64,000 nucleotides of DNA from Sulfurovum lithotrophicum (GTDB lineage: Bacteria; Campylobacterota; Campylobacteria; Campylobacterales; Sulfurovaceae), in assembly GCF_000987835.1 (NCBI RefSeq), contig NZ_CP011308.1, forward strand, positions 1,240,001-1,304,000, given 5' to 3'. How positions within the stretch are numbered: position 1 is the stretch's first letter; every line of letters starts with the position of its first letter. A program made the position numbers and the translations under genes. This document shows positions 40,885 to 48,188 of this stretch, piece after piece. The notes under the pieces are model-generated. The model was not told the DNA's origin, made no database searches, and saw only the letters and a list, made by a program, of their open reading frames with translations.

Positions 40885-43002
40885 CTATAAAAACCTCAAT
40901 CCGAGCTGATAGACCAACACACTCATTCCATAGGCTACAAGCGGCAGAAGGGCTGTTTCGAAAAGCATCCATCGCATCCCGAGCTCTGTTCTGATCGCTG
41001 CCATCGTAGAGACGCAGGGGATATAGAGTAAAATGAAGACCAAATAGCTGAATGCAGCCAGTGGAGAGGCAAACTGCTTCCGGAGTTTCTGCTGCAGTGT
41101 ACTGGGTTGTACATTGTTTAAACTTTCGATGTGAATATTGAACATGTGTAAAAAAGCATTTACAAAGGCTTCTTTCAAAGCTTTGAGCTGCATGATCGTA
41201 TCTTCTTTGAACGTACTTCTGGTCATCTCATTTTTTATTTCCACTCCGTAGATCGTCCCTAAGGAACTTATTACTACCTCTTTGGCAAGTGTCCCGGGGA
41301 TCATGGCAGCTACAGGTTCCCAATGTTCTCCGAACCCTGCCGGCTTGAATACCGGTGTAACTAATTTAGCCGTTTGTGCCAGATATGAGTTATGAGGATC
41401 GGTCCCTACAGGAAGTTTGATGATACCCCACAAAATGATCGAAGCCATGACGATCACCGTCCCTGCCCGCACTATGAAATCTTTGAGTTTTGGCCACATC
41501 AAAACCCAGACTGCTTTCATATTTGGCATATGATAAGTTGGCAGTTCCAGAAAAAAAGGTTTGCCCTCTTCCGAAGGCAGAATAAGATTGGAGATCCAGC
41601 CCAAAAAGAATGCAACGATGATCCCGAGAAGATAGAGTGACATGATCACCAGAACCTGATGCTCTTGAAAGAATATAGCGGTGAACAGTGCATAGATCGG
41701 AAGTCTGGCACTGCAGCTCATCAGGGGGATCATCAGTATCGTGATAATGCGTTCCCGTTTCGTCGTGAGTGCACGTGTTGCATAAACGGCAGGGACATTG
41801 CACCCGAAACCGATGATCATGGAAATAAAGGCATTCCCCTTGATGCGCAAAGTCCTTCCTGCACAGTCGAGCAGGAAGCTCACCCGTGCCATATAGCCGC
41901 TCTCTTCCAGCATCGCCATAAAAAAATAGAGCAGGAACAGAAGCGGCAAAAAAGAGAGCACCAGTCCCATACCGCTCAAAATACCGTCCGTGAACAGTGA
42001 AATAAGCCAAGGAGGAGCTACATCCTGAAGACCCAGTGAGATATATTTGTCCAGAAAATCCTGAAAAAAGTTCGACACCCACGTCACCAGAGATCCACTG
42101 CCGTCGAAGGTCAGTTTGAACATCAGCATCATAATGAGAAAGAAGAAAGGGATCCCCAACCATTTGTGTAAAAGAACGGCATCGATTTTTTCACTTAGCA
42201 GCACTTTGTCCAGGATCGGTTTTTTCAGAACAACCTCCAGCAAACGGTCGATGACCTCATATCTGGCACGCGTAATGATCGTTTTAATGGGAAGCTTCAT
42301 GTGTGCTTCCAGCCTGCCTCTTGCCTTTGCCGCTTTTTCTATGAGATCATTTTCTTTTAACGTCTCAGCCAAAGCATGGGCATAAGGATCGTCCGCGATC
42401 AGCTGTATCGCGAAAAACCGGGGTGACAGACCGGTCTGAGGCATTGCATGTATCAAAAAAGCGATCTCTTTTTCAATATGCTCCTGATAAGGCTGAATGA
42501 GGGGGATAGTCTGTTCCTTCACTGCAGCGATGGCAGCATCGATCAGTTTTTGCGTACCCAGTTTTCTGGATGCTATTGTGGGTATGGCCGGTACTCCAAA
42601 AATCTCCTGTAACTTATCAATATCGAGTTCATACCCGCGCTTGGTAAAATCATCGAACATATTGAGCGCTAATACCATGGGTCTCTGCATATCGATCAGT
42701 TCCAGAGTAAGATAGAGATTTCGGCGTAGGTTAGTCGTATCGATGACATCGATGATACCATCAAACTTTTCTTCTGCCAGCATGTTTCTGGTGATCTTCT
42801 CTTCAAGCGAATAGGGGCTGAGCGTATAGGCTCCTGGGAGATCGACCAGGACAACATCTTCTCCCGCATAGGTAAATCTTGCTTCCTTCTTCTCTACCGT
42901 CACCCCTGGCCAGTTACCCACTTCCAGGTCACTTTTTGCGATCGCATTGATCAGTGCCGTTTTACCTGTATTGGGATTGCCTACGAATGGGATGTGTATC
43001 AT
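40885..43002 (-). CDS. feoB: ferrous iron transporter FeoB
   Basis: 705 residues: an N-terminal G domain (G1 GNPNTGKTALI at 8-18, then DLPGAYTLSPYS at the G3 position), a helical guanine-dissociation-inhibitor-like segment, and a membrane domain of two Gate modules with about ten helices. GTP-dependent uptake of Fe(II) across the inner membrane. Starts 4 bases inside feoA (ATGA). The operon is headed by two permease halves. Confidence 0.95.
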   Translation of the reverse strand: MIHIPFVGNPNTGKTALINAIAKSDLEVGNWPGVTVEKKEARFTYAGEDVVLVDLPGAYTLSPYSLEEKITRNMLAEEKFDGIIDVIDTTNLRRNLYLTLELIDMQRPMVLALNMFDDFTKRGYELDIDKLQEIFGVPAIPTIASRKLGTQKLIDAAIAAVKEQTIPLIQPYQEHIEKEIAFLIHAMPQTGLSPRFFAIQLIADDPYAHALAETLKENDLIEKAAKARGRLEAHMKLPIKTIITRARYEVIDRLLEVVLKKPILDKVLLSEKIDAVLLHKWLGIPFFFLIMMLMFKLTFDGSGSLVTWVSNFFQDFLDKYISLGLQDVAPPWLISLFTDGILSGMGLVLSFLPLLFLLYFFMAMLEESGYMARVSFLLDCAGRTLRIKGNAFISMIIGFGCNVPAVYATRALTTKRERIITILMIPLMSCSARLPIYALFTAIFFQEHQVLVIMSLYLLGIIVAFFLGWISNLILPSEEGKPFFLELPTYHMPNMKAVWVLMWPKLKDFIVRAGTVIVMASIILWGIIKLPVGTDPHNSYLAQTAKLVTPVFKPAGFGEHWEPVAAMIPGTLAKEVVISSLGTIYGVEIKNEMTRSTFKEDTIMQLKALKEAFVNAFLHMFNIHIESLNNVQPSTLQQKLRKQFASPLAAFSYLVFILLYIPCVSTMAAIRTELGMRWMLFETALLPLVAYGMSVLVYQLGLRFL

Positions 43003-43259
43003 GAAAGCCCTTTCCTTTCACGATGTCTCAGTTGGGAAATGGCTTCAACTTCTATCTTTTGGGCATCCTCATTGCGCAGTGCCAGATGCTCATCTCCTAT
43101 ACGTATCTCGATAGGGTCCCCAAAAGGTGCAATGCGTACAACCTGAATGGGCTCACCACACAACACACCAAGTTCCATCAAGCGGTCCTTAAGTTCTCCT
43201 ATATCACCAATCGATTTGATGATCGCCTTTTGTTTTGGATGAAGTTCGCTGAGTTTCAT
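42999..43259 (-). CDS. feoA: FeoA SH3-like regulator of iron transport
   Basis: 86 residues beginning MKLSELHPKQKAIIKSIGD, a small SH3-fold protein that partners FeoB on the cytoplasmic side. Blocks LKDRLMELGVLCGEPIQVVR and GDPIEIRIGDEHLALR match the family. Its start overlaps the preceding permease and its stop overlaps feoB, both as ATGA. Confidence 0.93.
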   Translation of the reverse strand: MKLSELHPKQKAIIKSIGDIGELKDRLMELGVLCGEPIQVVRIAPFGDPIEIRIGDEHLALRNEDAQKIEVEAISQLRHRERKGLS

Positions 43260-43759
43260 TGTTCTCTCTCTTTATCATCCAGCCTCTCCACTATCACTCC
43301 CTGCAAGTAGGCACCCAAAACCACGTAAAAGGTGTAGACCAGTGTAAAAGCCCACCCAAAATAGCTTATCATCAGCGGCAGCCAGGGTATTTTGATGGCT
43401 CTTGCATAGATAAAGGCGATAACAAGACCATCTTTTGCGCCCTGCTCTCTGAGGTTTTGAAGCAAGGGGTACCACACATAACCCGGCCCATGGCTCAAGA
43501 TGCCACCGACTAGTGCCAAAAGCCACCCTTTACCACCACTCTCCTCACCCAAATGTTTTGAAATGGCTTTTTCATCGATAAAAGTACCCAGCAGTGCCAT
43601 GATAAAAAAGACGATCAGCAAAATGGGGATGATCATCTTCAGTACTTTCAAACTCGCACCCAGTGCATCAAGCGTTACATCCGGTTTCATAACATAAAGT
43701 ATGCCATAGAGCACTACAACAATGCCCAGCATGATCAGCCCGCTTCTGCTTTTTTTCAT
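43256..43759 (-). CDS. permease half, ArsP/DUF318-like (second half)
   Basis: 167 residues with four or so hydrophobic helices. GGILSHGPGYVWYPLLQNLREQ split over residues 95-116 and IAFIYARAIKIPWLPLM are typical of the predicted permease family ArsP/YraQ. I chose ATG 43759 with GGGGG 7 bases upstream. It overlaps the first half and feoA by 4 bases. The two halves together have the size of one ordinary permease, so a split gene is likely. Substrate unknown; context is iron. Confidence 0.65.
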   Translation of the reverse strand: MKKSRSGLIMLGIVVVLYGILYVMKPDVTLDALGASLKVLKMIIPILLIVFFIMALLGTFIDEKAISKHLGEESGGKGWLLALVGGILSHGPGYVWYPLLQNLREQGAKDGLVIAFIYARAIKIPWLPLMISYFGWAFTLVYTFYVVLGAYLQGVIVERLDDKEREQ

Positions 43760-44181
43760 GACAACACCCCCAGGGTGAATGCTATGGCCCATGAGAGGAT
43801 AAAAGCAAAAACAAGGCTCAAGAGATTTCTAAGCAGTGCAAAACGAAAACCGAAAATGGAGAACTCCATAGGAAGCTGCACAACCCCCAGTGTCACAAAA
43901 GCCAGAATGAACGCCGTAACACCGTAAAAAGAGGCCCCCTCATCCAGAAGTTCACCGCCGATGATATAGCTCAGGAACGGCTGCCCCACAGACACACCAC
44001 CCAATCCCACACCCACAAGCATATCGTGCATCCCTGAACCGTTGAAAAGTGTATGCAGCATTTCGGGGGTGATGAATGTTTTAAACAGACCTATCAGCCC
44101 GATGATCGCAAGAAGCATAGGGGAGATCATCAACAGAGTTTTGAGCGTCTGCTTCAGTGCAGTTTTGAGTTTTATCCGCAT
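43756..44181 (-). CDS. permease half, ArsP/DUF318-like (first half)
   Basis: 141 residues with about four membrane helices and the loop GGVSVGQPFLSYIIGGELLDE. Start is ATG 44181 with AAGG 6 bases upstream (a GTG at 44184 is also in frame). It leads the operon permease-permease-feoA-feoB with all joints overlapping by 4 bases. Its promoter region and first codons are repeated at 45811-45913. Confidence 0.65.
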   Translation of the reverse strand: MRIKLKTALKQTLKTLLMISPMLLAIIGLIGLFKTFITPEMLHTLFNGSGMHDMLVGVGLGGVSVGQPFLSYIIGGELLDEGASFYGVTAFILAFVTLGVVQLPMEFSIFGFRFALLRNLLSLVFAFILSWAIAFTLGVLS

Positions 44182-44266
44182 CACACACCTTCGAAAGTAG
44201 ATATGCTATTATTTCCCTATCTTGCTGATAGTCGGTTGAAGCAATTGATATTTGGTTGATATTAAA
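44181..44266. repeat. approx. 86-bp repeat, copy 1 (upstream of permease-feoAB)
   Basis: Nearly identical to 45826-45913, with about 3 differences and one indel. It holds the permease ribosome binding site and, at its far end, two TTGATATT boxes (44245-44252 and 44256-44263) spaced by 3 bases, that is one helix turn of 11 bases. The similarity weakly continues into the first permease codons (to about 44162). Confidence 0.8.
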
Positions 44267-44328
44267 GTCAAGGGCAAAAAAGTAATTACTGGTCCCCGAT
44301 AAAATCCAATTACTTTTTCTCTTTCTTC

Positions 44329-45567
44329 TTATTTCTTTATCTTGTCTCGCGGCACAAATTCCAAAACAGTAGCATTAATGCAAAAACGCTGTCTGCCATC
44401 AGGTGCATCGTTAAAGACGTGCCCCAAATGTGCACCTGATTTTTTGGCGATGATCTCTACTCTATGCATACCCCAAGCATTGTCCTCTTTTTGTATGGTA
44501 GCGCCATCGACTGCTTTGTAAAAACTTAACCATCCTGAACCGGAATTAAATCTGTCTCGGGTGTCAAAAAGGATCTCTCCCGAGATCTTGTCTCTAAAAA
44601 CACCATCCCCTGTATGTTTGAACTCATCGTATTTTTTACAAAATCTATTGTCGGTACTTTTGTGAAAAGCCACGTCAAACGCTTTGCTGTCTTTGCCTAG
44701 CTTGAATTTTCCCACCATTTTATAGAATTGCTTTTCATTCATGTATCCTACACGTGAGAGTATCTCTTCTCCATCTATGATGAAGAGAACCGTAGGTGTA
44801 CCTTCTATTTTGGTATGGAGTTTAAAGCCTTTTAACTGGTCTTGATGTACGGTTCTAAGAGGTATCGTTCCTTTGTAATGGTCTGTAACATTCTTTTTGA
44901 ACTTCTCACAGAAACGACAGTGCTCTGCATCTATCACGACTATCTCTTTGCCACCCAGTGGAGAGATGCTGTCTGTCATGATTTTTTCATTGCTAAACTT
45001 CACCTCTGTGGCATGGTTGGGGCAGTAACCGTTTGGATTTTTTTCCAGGTAGTTCTGGTGATATTCTTCTGCTTTGTAAAACTTCTCTAACGGCTTGATC
45101 TCTGTGGTGATAGCACCATACCCCGCTTTGTTAAGCAGCTTCTGATACACCTCTTTTGTTGCCAATGCTATCTTCTTTTGTGCATCATTGGTGTAGTAGA
45201 GTGCGGAACGATAGTTGTTTCCCTTGTCGTTGCCTTGTCCGTCAGGCTGTGTAGGGTTATGCAGTTCCCAAAAAGACTTGATGAGACGCTCTGTACTGAT
45301 TTTGCTGTCATCATAGACAACTTCAACAGACTCCGCATGGTTTATAATGCCTCTTTTTGGGTTTCTTCTCTTGAGAACTTCTCTGTATGTGGGGTTTTCA
45401 TAGTTCCCGCCGGCATACCCTGAAGTTGCCTTTATCACACCATCAAGATGTTCAAAGTGTTTCTCGACACCCCAGAAACATCCTGCGGCAAATACAATGG
45501 TTTGTGTCTTGGCTAAAACAGCAACACTAAGAGCTAAAAATAGAATTATTTTTCTAAGATTCGGCAT
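44329..45567 (-). CDS. msrA: MsrA-thioredoxin-MsrB fusion, exported
   Basis: 412 residues with an N-terminal hydrophobic signal (about 5-20). MsrA domain (about 21-190) with catalytic Cys30 in GCFWG; a thioredoxin-like middle domain (about 205-305) with CRFC (217-220) and a cis-proline EGTPTV; MsrB domain (about 310-412) with SGSGWLSF and Cys396 in RFCINAT. It repairs both stereoisomers of oxidised methionine in the periplasm. The domain order MsrA-Trx-MsrB differs from the Trx-MsrA-MsrB order of PilB-type proteins. MsrB has no zinc cysteines. Stands alone. Confidence 0.88.
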   Translation of the reverse strand: MPNLRKIILFLALSVAVLAKTQTIVFAAGCFWGVEKHFEHLDGVIKATSGYAGGNYENPTYREVLKRRNPKRGIINHAESVEVVYDDSKISTERLIKSFWELHNPTQPDGQGNDKGNNYRSALYYTNDAQKKIALATKEVYQKLLNKAGYGAITTEIKPLEKFYKAEEYHQNYLEKNPNGYCPNHATEVKFSNEKIMTDSISPLGGKEIVVIDAEHCRFCEKFKKNVTDHYKGTIPLRTVHQDQLKGFKLHTKIEGTPTVLFIIDGEEILSRVGYMNEKQFYKMVGKFKLGKDSKAFDVAFHKSTDNRFCKKYDEFKHTGDGVFRDKISGEILFDTRDRFNSGSGWLSFYKAVDGATIQKEDNAWGMHRVEIIAKKSGAHLGHVFNDAPDGRQRFCINATVLEFVPRDKIKK

Positions 45568-45829
45568 TTAGTACCTCACTGTACTGAATTTTAATTCTTG
45601 TCATAAAACTATCCTTTTTCTATAAAGTAATATGCAAGTCTATCCAAACATCTGTGTAGCAGTGTGTACTATCTTGAGGAGGGCATATGCCTCTTACGAT
45701 TTCGACAATAAAATTGCTTCATTGCGCATTGTTGTATAGACATCTCTCCATCGGCATAAGAAGAAAGCCTAAATGATATTTGAGTTTTGCTTTGAGGTTG
45801 AGTGCCATTTTGAGTTTGACTTGTATCAC
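45568..45829 (-). pseudogene. intergenic region with a decayed copy of the permease start
   Basis: Within this gap, the frame ending at 45719 reads 36 codons (V-I-Q-V-K-L-K-M-A-L then NLKAKLKYHL) that resemble the permease start MRIKLKTALK. The permease ATG has become ATA, although its Shine-Dalgarno bases are kept. The later part (ending YNNAQ) no longer matches. A GAGGGCATATGCCTC near-palindrome lies at about 45677-45691. I see no other gene here. Confidence 0.45.
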
Positions 45830-45913
45830 ACACCTTCAAAAAGTAGATATGCTATTATTTCCCTAACTTGCTGATAGTCGGTTGAAGCAATTGATATTTG
45901 GTTGATATTAAAA
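45826..45913. repeat. approx. 86-bp repeat, copy 2 (upstream of the two-component operon)
   Basis: See copy 1 at 44181-44266. The repeat ends 34 bases before the response-regulator start. The duplicated stretch includes the phased TTGATATT boxes and the old permease leader. Confidence 0.8.
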
Positions 45914-45922
45914 AGATATAAT
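45891..45922 (+). promoter_or_regulatory. phased direct repeats and -10 box of the two-component operon
   Basis: Two TTGATATT boxes (45891-45898 and 45902-45909, 11-base period) lie just where a -35 region would be, 7 bases before a perfect TATAAT (45917-45922). OmpR-family regulators bind tandem repeats with this phase and activate such promoters. Auto-activation by the regulator at 45948 is the simplest reading. Confidence 0.6.
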
Positions 45923-45947: not shown

Positions 45948-46616
45948 ATGCAAAGGAAAATACTGCTGCTTGAAGATGATCTTCAGCTGAACGATACAGT
46001 CAAACAGTTCCTTGAGCACCACCAGTATACTGTTCTGCCCGCTTATAACGGACATCAGGCCAAAGAGATACTTTACGAAACCGAAGTTGACCTGATGCTG
46101 CTGGACATTAAAGTGCCGCATCAAAGCGGATTTAACCTCCTCTCGGAAGTACGACAGGAAGGGAACGATACTCCTGCCATTTTCATTACTTCTCTTCACA
46201 GTGTCGACGATGTCAGCAAAGGTTTCGATGTCGGATGTGACGACTACATCAGGAAACCTTTTGCCCTGAAGGAACTTCTTGTCCGCATTGAAGCCCAACT
46301 CAGAAAACGCTATGGCAGCAGAGACAACCATGTCGATCTGGGTAACGGTCTCAATTATTATCCCAAAGAGTTCAGACTGACATTGGACGGCAATACCATT
46401 CCTTTAAAGCAAAAAGAAGCCAAACTGCTTGCGCTCCTGCTCGAACATCCCGATCAGCTTGTCACCTATGACAAGATCCATGCCGCACTCTGGGAGTTCG
46501 ATGAAGAACCAAGTGCCGGTTCACTGCGCACCTACATCAAAACACTGCGTTCCCATCTGGGAAAAGATCGTATCGAAACGGTCAAAAATATAGGATACCG
46601 CTTTGTATCGAAGTGA
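45948..46616 (+). CDS. OmpR-family response regulator
   Basis: 222 residues: a receiver domain with phospho-acceptor Asp53 (LMLLDIKVPHQSG), the switch Lys103 (YIRKPF), and a winged-helix DNA-binding domain (about 128-222) with the closing block GSLRTYIKTLRSHLGKDRIETV. It is co-translated with the histidine kinase (13-base overlap). AAGG lies 7 bases before the ATG. Target genes are unknown; the shared repeat points to the permease-feoAB operon. Confidence 0.93.
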   Translation: MQRKILLLEDDLQLNDTVKQFLEHHQYTVLPAYNGHQAKEILYETEVDLMLLDIKVPHQSGFNLLSEVRQEGNDTPAIFITSLHSVDDVSKGFDVGCDDYIRKPFALKELLVRIEAQLRKRYGSRDNHVDLGNGLNYYPKEFRLTLDGNTIPLKQKEAKLLALLLEHPDQLVTYDKIHAALWEFDEEPSAGSLRTYIKTLRSHLGKDRIETVKNIGYRFVSK

Positions 46617-47766
46617 AAGAAGAAGCCTTTTTCGTTTTCTGGCAATCTATCTGCTCTCAACACTGATACTCTTTACGATCGGAAGTGCCATTTTCTACAC
46701 CCTCGAAAAACACCACCTCCTAGATAGGCAGCGAGAAGCGATGAAGCATGAAGGAGAGAAAATACAGCATCAGCTTATCCGTCTTCACAAAAGCTTTGAA
46801 GCAAAACTTCCCATCCGCGTAAAAGAGCCCTATAAGATCGCACTGCTCGACAAAGATCATACCATTATTTTTTCCAATTTTACGCCTCCAAAGAATATTG
46901 ATCTCAGGCAGGAGTACCACCTGGTCGACAGGCATATACTCTACATCAAACCCGTTGACCCCTATTATCTTGGTACCGCCTACCTTCTGCTCTGGACACC
47001 GGTTGACGGAACAGCCATATCCCATCTGCAAAACATGATACTTCTTTTCATGCTGGGAGCAGGAGCATTTTTTCTGCTGCTGGGCTACTTTCTGGGACGG
47101 CTCTTCATAGCGCCCATGCGTGAATCCATCGAAACCATGAACCGCTTCATCCAGGATACAACCCACGAGCTCAATACTCCCGTCAGCACCATCCTGACCA
47201 ACCTTGAGCTCATCCAGACCCTGCATAAATGTGATGCAAAAGAGGAGATGCAGCGCATTGAGATCGCATCAAAGACATTGAGCCGCATCTACGATGACCT
47301 GACCTACCTGAAACTCAACCACCAGTACCATCGCGATATCAAGACAGTTGACCTTTCCAGACTTCTTCAGGAACGACTGGAATACTTTTCCACAGCGATC
47401 GAAGCAAAAAAGCTCACTCTCACGATAGACATAAAACCCGGTGTTGTTCTGCATATCGATCATGACGATGCCATTCGCCTGCTGGACAACCTCATTTCCA
47501 ATGCCATCAAGTATAACCAAAATGAAGGCCGTTTGGACGTTCTTCTGGATGAGAAAAACTTCAGCATAAAGGACAGCGGTATCGGCATCGATCAGGCAGA
47601 ACTCACTACGATCCACAAACGCTTCAAACGTGCCAACAGCAGCGAAGGCGGCTTCGGCATAGGACTCGATATCGTCTATCAGGTGGTAAAGGCTTATAGC
47701 TTTAACATAACAATAGATTCACAAAAAAACAGAGGAACGGAGGTTACTGTCAGATGGGAAAAATAG
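46603..47766 (+). CDS. sensor histidine kinase
   Basis: 387 residues starting at TTG. Two membrane helices (about 11-33 and 143-167) enclose a periplasmic sensor of about 110 residues. The phospho-accepting His188 is in DTTHELNTPVS; the ATPase has DNLISNAIKYN (N box), DSGIGID (G1) and GGFGIGLDIV (G2). No HAMP is clear. Its 3' end overlaps a cytochrome c gene by 13 bases, suggesting the heme protein is part of the sensing unit. Confidence 0.9.
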   Translation: MYRSERRSLFRFLAIYLLSTLILFTIGSAIFYTLEKHHLLDRQREAMKHEGEKIQHQLIRLHKSFEAKLPIRVKEPYKIALLDKDHTIIFSNFTPPKNIDLRQEYHLVDRHILYIKPVDPYYLGTAYLLLWTPVDGTAISHLQNMILLFMLGAGAFFLLLGYFLGRLFIAPMRESIETMNRFIQDTTHELNTPVSTILTNLELIQTLHKCDAKEEMQRIEIASKTLSRIYDDLTYLKLNHQYHRDIKTVDLSRLLQERLEYFSTAIEAKKLTLTIDIKPGVVLHIDHDDAIRLLDNLISNAIKYNQNEGRLDVLLDEKNFSIKDSGIGIDQAELTTIHKRFKRANSSEGGFGIGLDIVYQVVKAYSFNITIDSQKNRGTEVTVRWEK

Positions 47767-48122
47767 TATTGATTTTTTTAACTGTACTGATTTCACTGGG
47801 TGCCGGTGAGAACACAACGGACAAAGCACTGCAAAAAGAATGTCTACATTGCCATACAGAGCAGCAGATCCCTTCCGGGATAATCTACCGTCGATATCTG
47901 CTCAAATACTCTTCCAAAACATTGATCAGAGAAAAAATATTTGCATATCTAAAAGTACCTTCTCCCAAAACATCAATCATGCCGGCTCCATTTTTTAACA
48001 AGTTTCTTATCAAAGAAGTATCAAAACTTGACGATGAAACATTGCATCGCATGATCGACAGTTACATCAAACATTTTGATATTGACCAAAAGATCTATAT
48101 TGTTCCGGAAGAAACCATATAA
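47754..48122 (+). CDS. small periplasmic cytochrome c-like protein
   Basis: 122 residues with a signal peptide (about 1-17) and one heme motif CLHCH (30-34). The remaining part has a Met in SIMPAPFF that could be the sixth ligand. It begins within the kinase gene, so it is translated with the two-component system. Possible redox or nitric-oxide-type sensor partner of the kinase, or an electron carrier; both are inference. Confidence 0.8.
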   Translation: MGKIVLIFLTVLISLGAGENTTDKALQKECLHCHTEQQIPSGIIYRRYLLKYSSKTLIREKIFAYLKVPSPKTSIMPAPFFNKFLIKEVSKLDDETLHRMIDSYIKHFDIDQKIYIVPEETI

Positions 48123-48188
48123 TTGACATTGGGTGTACATTGCACCTCTATGATCCGGTATCCGTTTTCGCTTCAGAAGATATCTCTA

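Follow-up and report, generated by a model that had tools for sequence, protein, structure and literature searches.

The window analyzed is a stretch of 64,000 nucleotides from the complete 2.2-Mb genome of Sulfurovum lithotrophicum (G000), which was compared with 77 other genomes of the genus (78 Sulfurovum genomes in total). The locus comprises the permease-feoAB operon and msrAB on the minus strand, and an operon for a response regulator, a sensor histidine kinase and a small exported protein on the plus strand (Table 1). Perm1 and Perm2 each matched the C-terminal half of ArsP_1, and their genes were adjacent in all relatives seen; they are possibly the two subunits of one permease. Domain scores (Response_reg, 5.2e-24; winged-helix Trans_reg_C, 8.1e-18) placed the response regulator in the OmpR/PhoB family. 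The histidine kinase gene overlaps the end of the regulator gene within the same operon and is kept in orthologous loci, as for a cognate kinase. The gene for the small CLHCH protein, which by this motif would be a cytochrome, is also kept in the orthologous regulator loci.

Table 1. Genes and sequence features of the locus, in window coordinates.
Feature	Position	Strand	Remarks
feoB	40885-43002	-	domain match
feoA	42999-43259	-	domain match
perm2, half-size ArsP_1-like permease	43256..43792	-	ArsP_1 domain match
perm1, half-size ArsP_1-like permease	43756..44184	-	weak ArsP_1 match, under curated cut-off
perm1 start inside repeat, intact copy	44153..44184	-
Copy 1, non-coding	44185..44266	.	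permease core and boxes, without the regulator's -10
Permease promoter core, copy 1	44205..44240	-	minus strand TTCAACCGACTATCAGCAAGATAGGGAAATAATAGC; conserved in G024, G020, G014, G016
Tandem boxes TTGATATT-TGG-TTGATATT, copy 1	44245..44263	+	without -10 at the right spacing
msrAB, MsrA-thioredoxin-like-MsrB fusion	44329..45567	-	PMSR, Thioredoxin_2, SelR domains
Dispersed 51-nt leader ORF (MTRIKIQYSEVLNAES)	45554..45604	-	overlaps msrAB start
Decayed permease start of copy 2	45798..45830	-	~19/27 coding bases remain
Copy 2, non-coding	45831..45912	.
Permease-type promoter core, copy 2	45851..45886	-	faces msrAB ~250 nt away
Tandem boxes of regulator promoter, copy 2	45891..45909	+	in place of -35; fixed spacing kept in orthologues
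-10 element TATAAT of regulator operon	45917..45922	+
OmpR-family response regulator	45948..46616	+	Response_reg and Trans_reg_C
Sensor histidine kinase	46603..47766	+	HisKA and HATPase_c
Small exported protein, third gene of regulator operon	47754..48122	+	CLHCH haem-binding motif
Probable orphan site of same geometry (TTGACATTGGGTGTACATTGCACCTCTATGAT)	48123..48154	+	score 18.0

The initial annotation had described a stretch of approximately 86 bp upstream of both the permease-feoAB operon and the regulator operon, the second instance with a decayed permease start. Both elements are real: the non-coding part of the two copies comprises 82 bases with ~96% identity (~3 differences; 44185-44266 vs. 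45831-45912), and the permease start of copy 2 is still recognizable. What had been overlooked is that msrAB sits between the copies. A repeat search recovered 44194-44266 vs. 45840-45912 (73 nt, 99%), together with a second pair that takes in the permease start (44153-44196 vs. 45798-45841; 44 nt, 80%), and gapped alignment of 44153-44266 with 45798-45912 resulted in 104 of 115 identical positions in direct orientation. All 24 repeated 25-mers of the window derived from this pair, and copy 2, used as a query against the genome, retrieved copy 1 with E = 1.9e-38. The tandem boxes are identical in both copies, and a search for TTGATATT-N3-TTGATATT elsewhere in the genome confirmed that the arrangement occurs exactly twice, both times here. 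Seven bases after the second box of copy 2 stands TATAAT, as had been claimed, whereas in copy 1 the sequence diverges straight after the boxes and the -10 element is missing (site score of 11.0 vs. 32.9). No terminator was found downstream of msrAB ahead of copy 1; the hairpin spanning 44268-44332 is no more stable than its shuffles (z -0.35).

Four relatives were informative with regard to the origin of this arrangement. G024, whose regulator is 93% identical, has perm1 and the regulator separated by a 118-bp gap, with one copy of the region and no msrAB; copy 2 together with 45913-45947 matches it at 112 of 117 positions and represents the complete ancestral divergent region. In G024 a single region is predicted to serve both permease-feoAB and the regulator. 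In G014 and G016 the permease lies far from the regulator; the former is preceded by the core GCTATTATTTCCCTATCTTGCTGATA...GGTT and no boxes, the latter by its boxes amid other surroundings. Since core and boxes are carried separately in these two genomes, the region shared by G000, G024 and G020 is a fusion of two promoters. G020 has lost the regulator operon (best match in that genome, 49%), and chrA abuts its permease; boxes and TATAAT are nonetheless kept upstream of the permease (L226 7524-7560), an observation that counts against the explanation favored below. In another relative (G009:C71; L191 5869-12779), type I restriction-modification-like genes lie between the permease operon and a SelO-regulator pair.

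Of 37 dissimilar regions upstream of regulator orthologues, 22 matched the pattern TTSAY-N6-TTSAY-N10-TAYNAT at 14 or more of its 15 positions, vs. a mean of 0.03 and a maximum of 1 in randomized sequences; the pattern was worded after some of the same regions had been seen, and the count is therefore not blind, yet the margin is large. The remaining 15 orthologues had no site directly upstream, several of them with a coding gene immediately upstream. Boxes and -10 element thus recurred at fixed spacing before orthologues with otherwise unrelated upstream sequence, as direct repeats of ~11-bp period at the -35 position, that is, in the form of a class II OmpR-type promoter. The same geometry was found before a cytochrome c-perm1-perm2 operon in G002, G009 and L054, before a cytochrome c gene in G016, and before a DUF2202 gene in G024. 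The latter site occupies the place equivalent to 48123-48154 of the window, where a site of this type is only suggestive (score of 18.0 vs. 21.4 for the best of ten randomized windows). Whether box type (TTG or TTC) co-varies with residues of the recognition helix was also considered, and the idea was discarded: the helix sequence GSLRTYIKTLRS hardly varies in either group, which is neutral with respect to binding.

Autoregulation of the regulator through the predicted boxes is well supported by these comparisons, and the most likely role of the boxes is to allow activation of this operon by its own regulator, which is an ordinary arrangement. The proposal that a promoter duplication had brought the regulator under its own control holds only in its first part: autoregulation is well supported, its origin by duplication is not, as the close orthologues with a single copy are all already boxed. 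In its mode of control, the predicted site is an ordinary one of the OmpR/PhoB type; what is unusual is the local rearrangement.

As for the leftward direction, copy 2 probably drives msrAB in addition to driving the regulator rightward, since its permease-type core is intact without a permease and msrAB follows on the same strand; for the msrAB part of this proposal, gene conversion is the main rival. The start of msrAB is itself overlapped by a dispersed 51-nt element encoding MTRIKIQYSEALNAES followed by a stop codon, which shares bases with the start codon of the gene that follows, the protein of this gene beginning with MPNLKK or similar (window 45554-45604, minus strand; L097, L125-L138, L231-L259). 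Forty-one matches to it were found in 22 of the 78 Sulfurovum genomes and none with the reversed control pattern, and each of the 30 non-redundant copies (30/30) contains the start of an ORF of 80 aa or more. The genes behind it are unrelated (msrAB, hemE-like, rimO-like, amidase-like, and others), and the element resembles a mobile gene start with translational coupling.

We consider it probable that an ancestral divergent region with two promoters came to hold msrAB, with direct copies on each side. The ancestor would have had one control region, with permease-feoAB leftward and the operon for the response regulator, the histidine kinase and the small haem protein rightward, and with two independent promoters in it: the permease core and the regulator promoter. 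In the latter, tandem TTSAY boxes 11 bp apart would stand in for the -35 element, and the phosphorylated regulator, presumably bound to them as a head-to-tail dimer, would activate its own operon in a class II, PhoB-like manner. Once msrAB had become placed within the region, copy 2 would have kept its full two-way function, transcribing the regulator rightward and, most likely, msrAB leftward by means of the former permease promoter; copy 1 would have kept the permease promoter, its boxes being a by-product. Genome comparison shows the conserved sequence and geometry of the boxes, the single-copy arrangement of G024, and the box-less core of G014 and G016.

The age of the duplication bears on the first alternative, namely that msrAB was recently inserted in the G000 lineage alone, duplicating its target region, and that the copies are alike through youth. 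This scenario is possible, if less probable than the one above, and is consistent with the absence of the paired arrangement from all 77 other genomes of the genus searched (0/77), and with the other contexts in which msrAB sits elsewhere. With respect to G024, however, third codon positions were 64% identical in perm1 and 79% in the regulator, vs. 96% for the non-coding region, and copy 2 combines a conserved promoter with an adjoining permease start that is down to ~70%, similar to the third-position divergence. Third positions and relic having decayed, the ~96% non-coding identity implies that the region is constrained or converted, and the event cannot be dated from this similarity; an age near the split between G000 and G024 is suggested instead by the decayed relic. 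Moreover, CCCTAAC is common to copy 2 and G024, with CCCTATC in copy 1, G020, G014 and G016, and this one base hints that msrAB may have been present in the common ancestor, G024 having lost it when the repeats recombined. Insertion by a mobile element or repeat was rejected as a candidate: the right flank (45618-45835) had only short matches elsewhere, in coding sequence of unrelated genes, and no mobile-element end was found. The msrAB neighborhoods fetched from relatives shared no flank with this one, except for a 41-bp stretch in G032.

It is rather doubtful that gene conversion alone keeps the copies alike, with the boxes of copy 1 and the permease core of copy 2 being functionless. Conversion can occur between direct repeats at a distance of 1.6 kb, and a consensus promoter scan gave no score above chance, the region showing no outstanding promoter consensus; yet core and boxes are each conserved in single-copy genomes, which indicates a function for one or both instances of each, although the second instances may still be converted. 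The least plausible alternative, that the duplicated boxes place permease-feoAB under the regulator and tie the two-component system to ferrous iron uptake, could draw on the intact boxes of copy 1, on their retention in G020 without the regulator and on the canonical site of the permease operon in G002, G009 and L054, but we regard it as improbable, and the earlier idea that the feo operon was handed to the regulator as unsupported, because the permeases of G014 and G016 keep the conserved core without boxes, the boxes of copy 1 point away from perm1 (minus strand), lie ~31 bp upstream of the candidate perm1 -10 (AATAAT at 44213-44208) and lack a -10 of their own, and feoAB does not directly follow the canonical-site permease operon in G002 or L054.

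Returning to the two-promoter ancestor with msrAB placed inside it, the linking event is the position of msrAB within the two-way region, rather than capture of the feo operon by the regulator. The permease can belong to the predicted regulon in another sub-lineage, as the canonical site on the cytochrome c-permease operon suggests; this is not extended to feoAB. Shared boxes should not be taken for shared regulation; two unrelated promoters came to share one intergenic region here. The locus is also a clear case in which a coding relic decays beside an intact promoter, and it reveals the bases that are retained after duplication of a control region. More tentatively, the three units (permease-feoAB, msrAB and the regulator operon) might share parts of one copied two-way region, making periplasmic methionine repair part of the regulon. 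If so, methionine repair, cytochromes, the ArsP-like permease and iron uptake would form a redox or metal-stress regulon governed by an uncharacterized Sulfurovum two-component system. In any case, a binding site and a small regulon can be predicted for this system, which is widespread in the genus.

In class II activation by the OmpR/PhoB family, boxes lie at about -38 to -20 and replace the -35 element, and such promoters (pho box type) have head-to-tail repeats of 11-bp period and are found in autoregulated two-component operons. The regulator promoter described here is similar in having an OmpR-type regulator and head-to-tail repeats of 11-bp period replacing the -35 before the -10; it differs from the pho box type in that the repeat is TTSAY and binding is predicted. 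Promoters regulated by DccR (Cj1223c) of Campylobacter jejuni carry the repeat TTCAC-N6-TTCAC, which has the same period as the boxes found here, the likeness being one of motif and description. The DccRS system provides a Campylobacterota example of an OmpR-like regulator activating a small set of genes that encode periplasmic and membrane proteins (PMC9449129). Elsewhere in G000, a paralogue with 48% identity to the regulator (G000:791185), at a locus with TTCACAATCTTTTCACAA, is divergent from an msrA gene (G000:C1:790178-794079, L190) and has TTCACAATCTTTTCACAATTCCATGGTATCAT downstream of its operon, a site conserved in G024, G014, G016 and G009. This paralogue fits the DccR motif better than the regulator of the present locus does.
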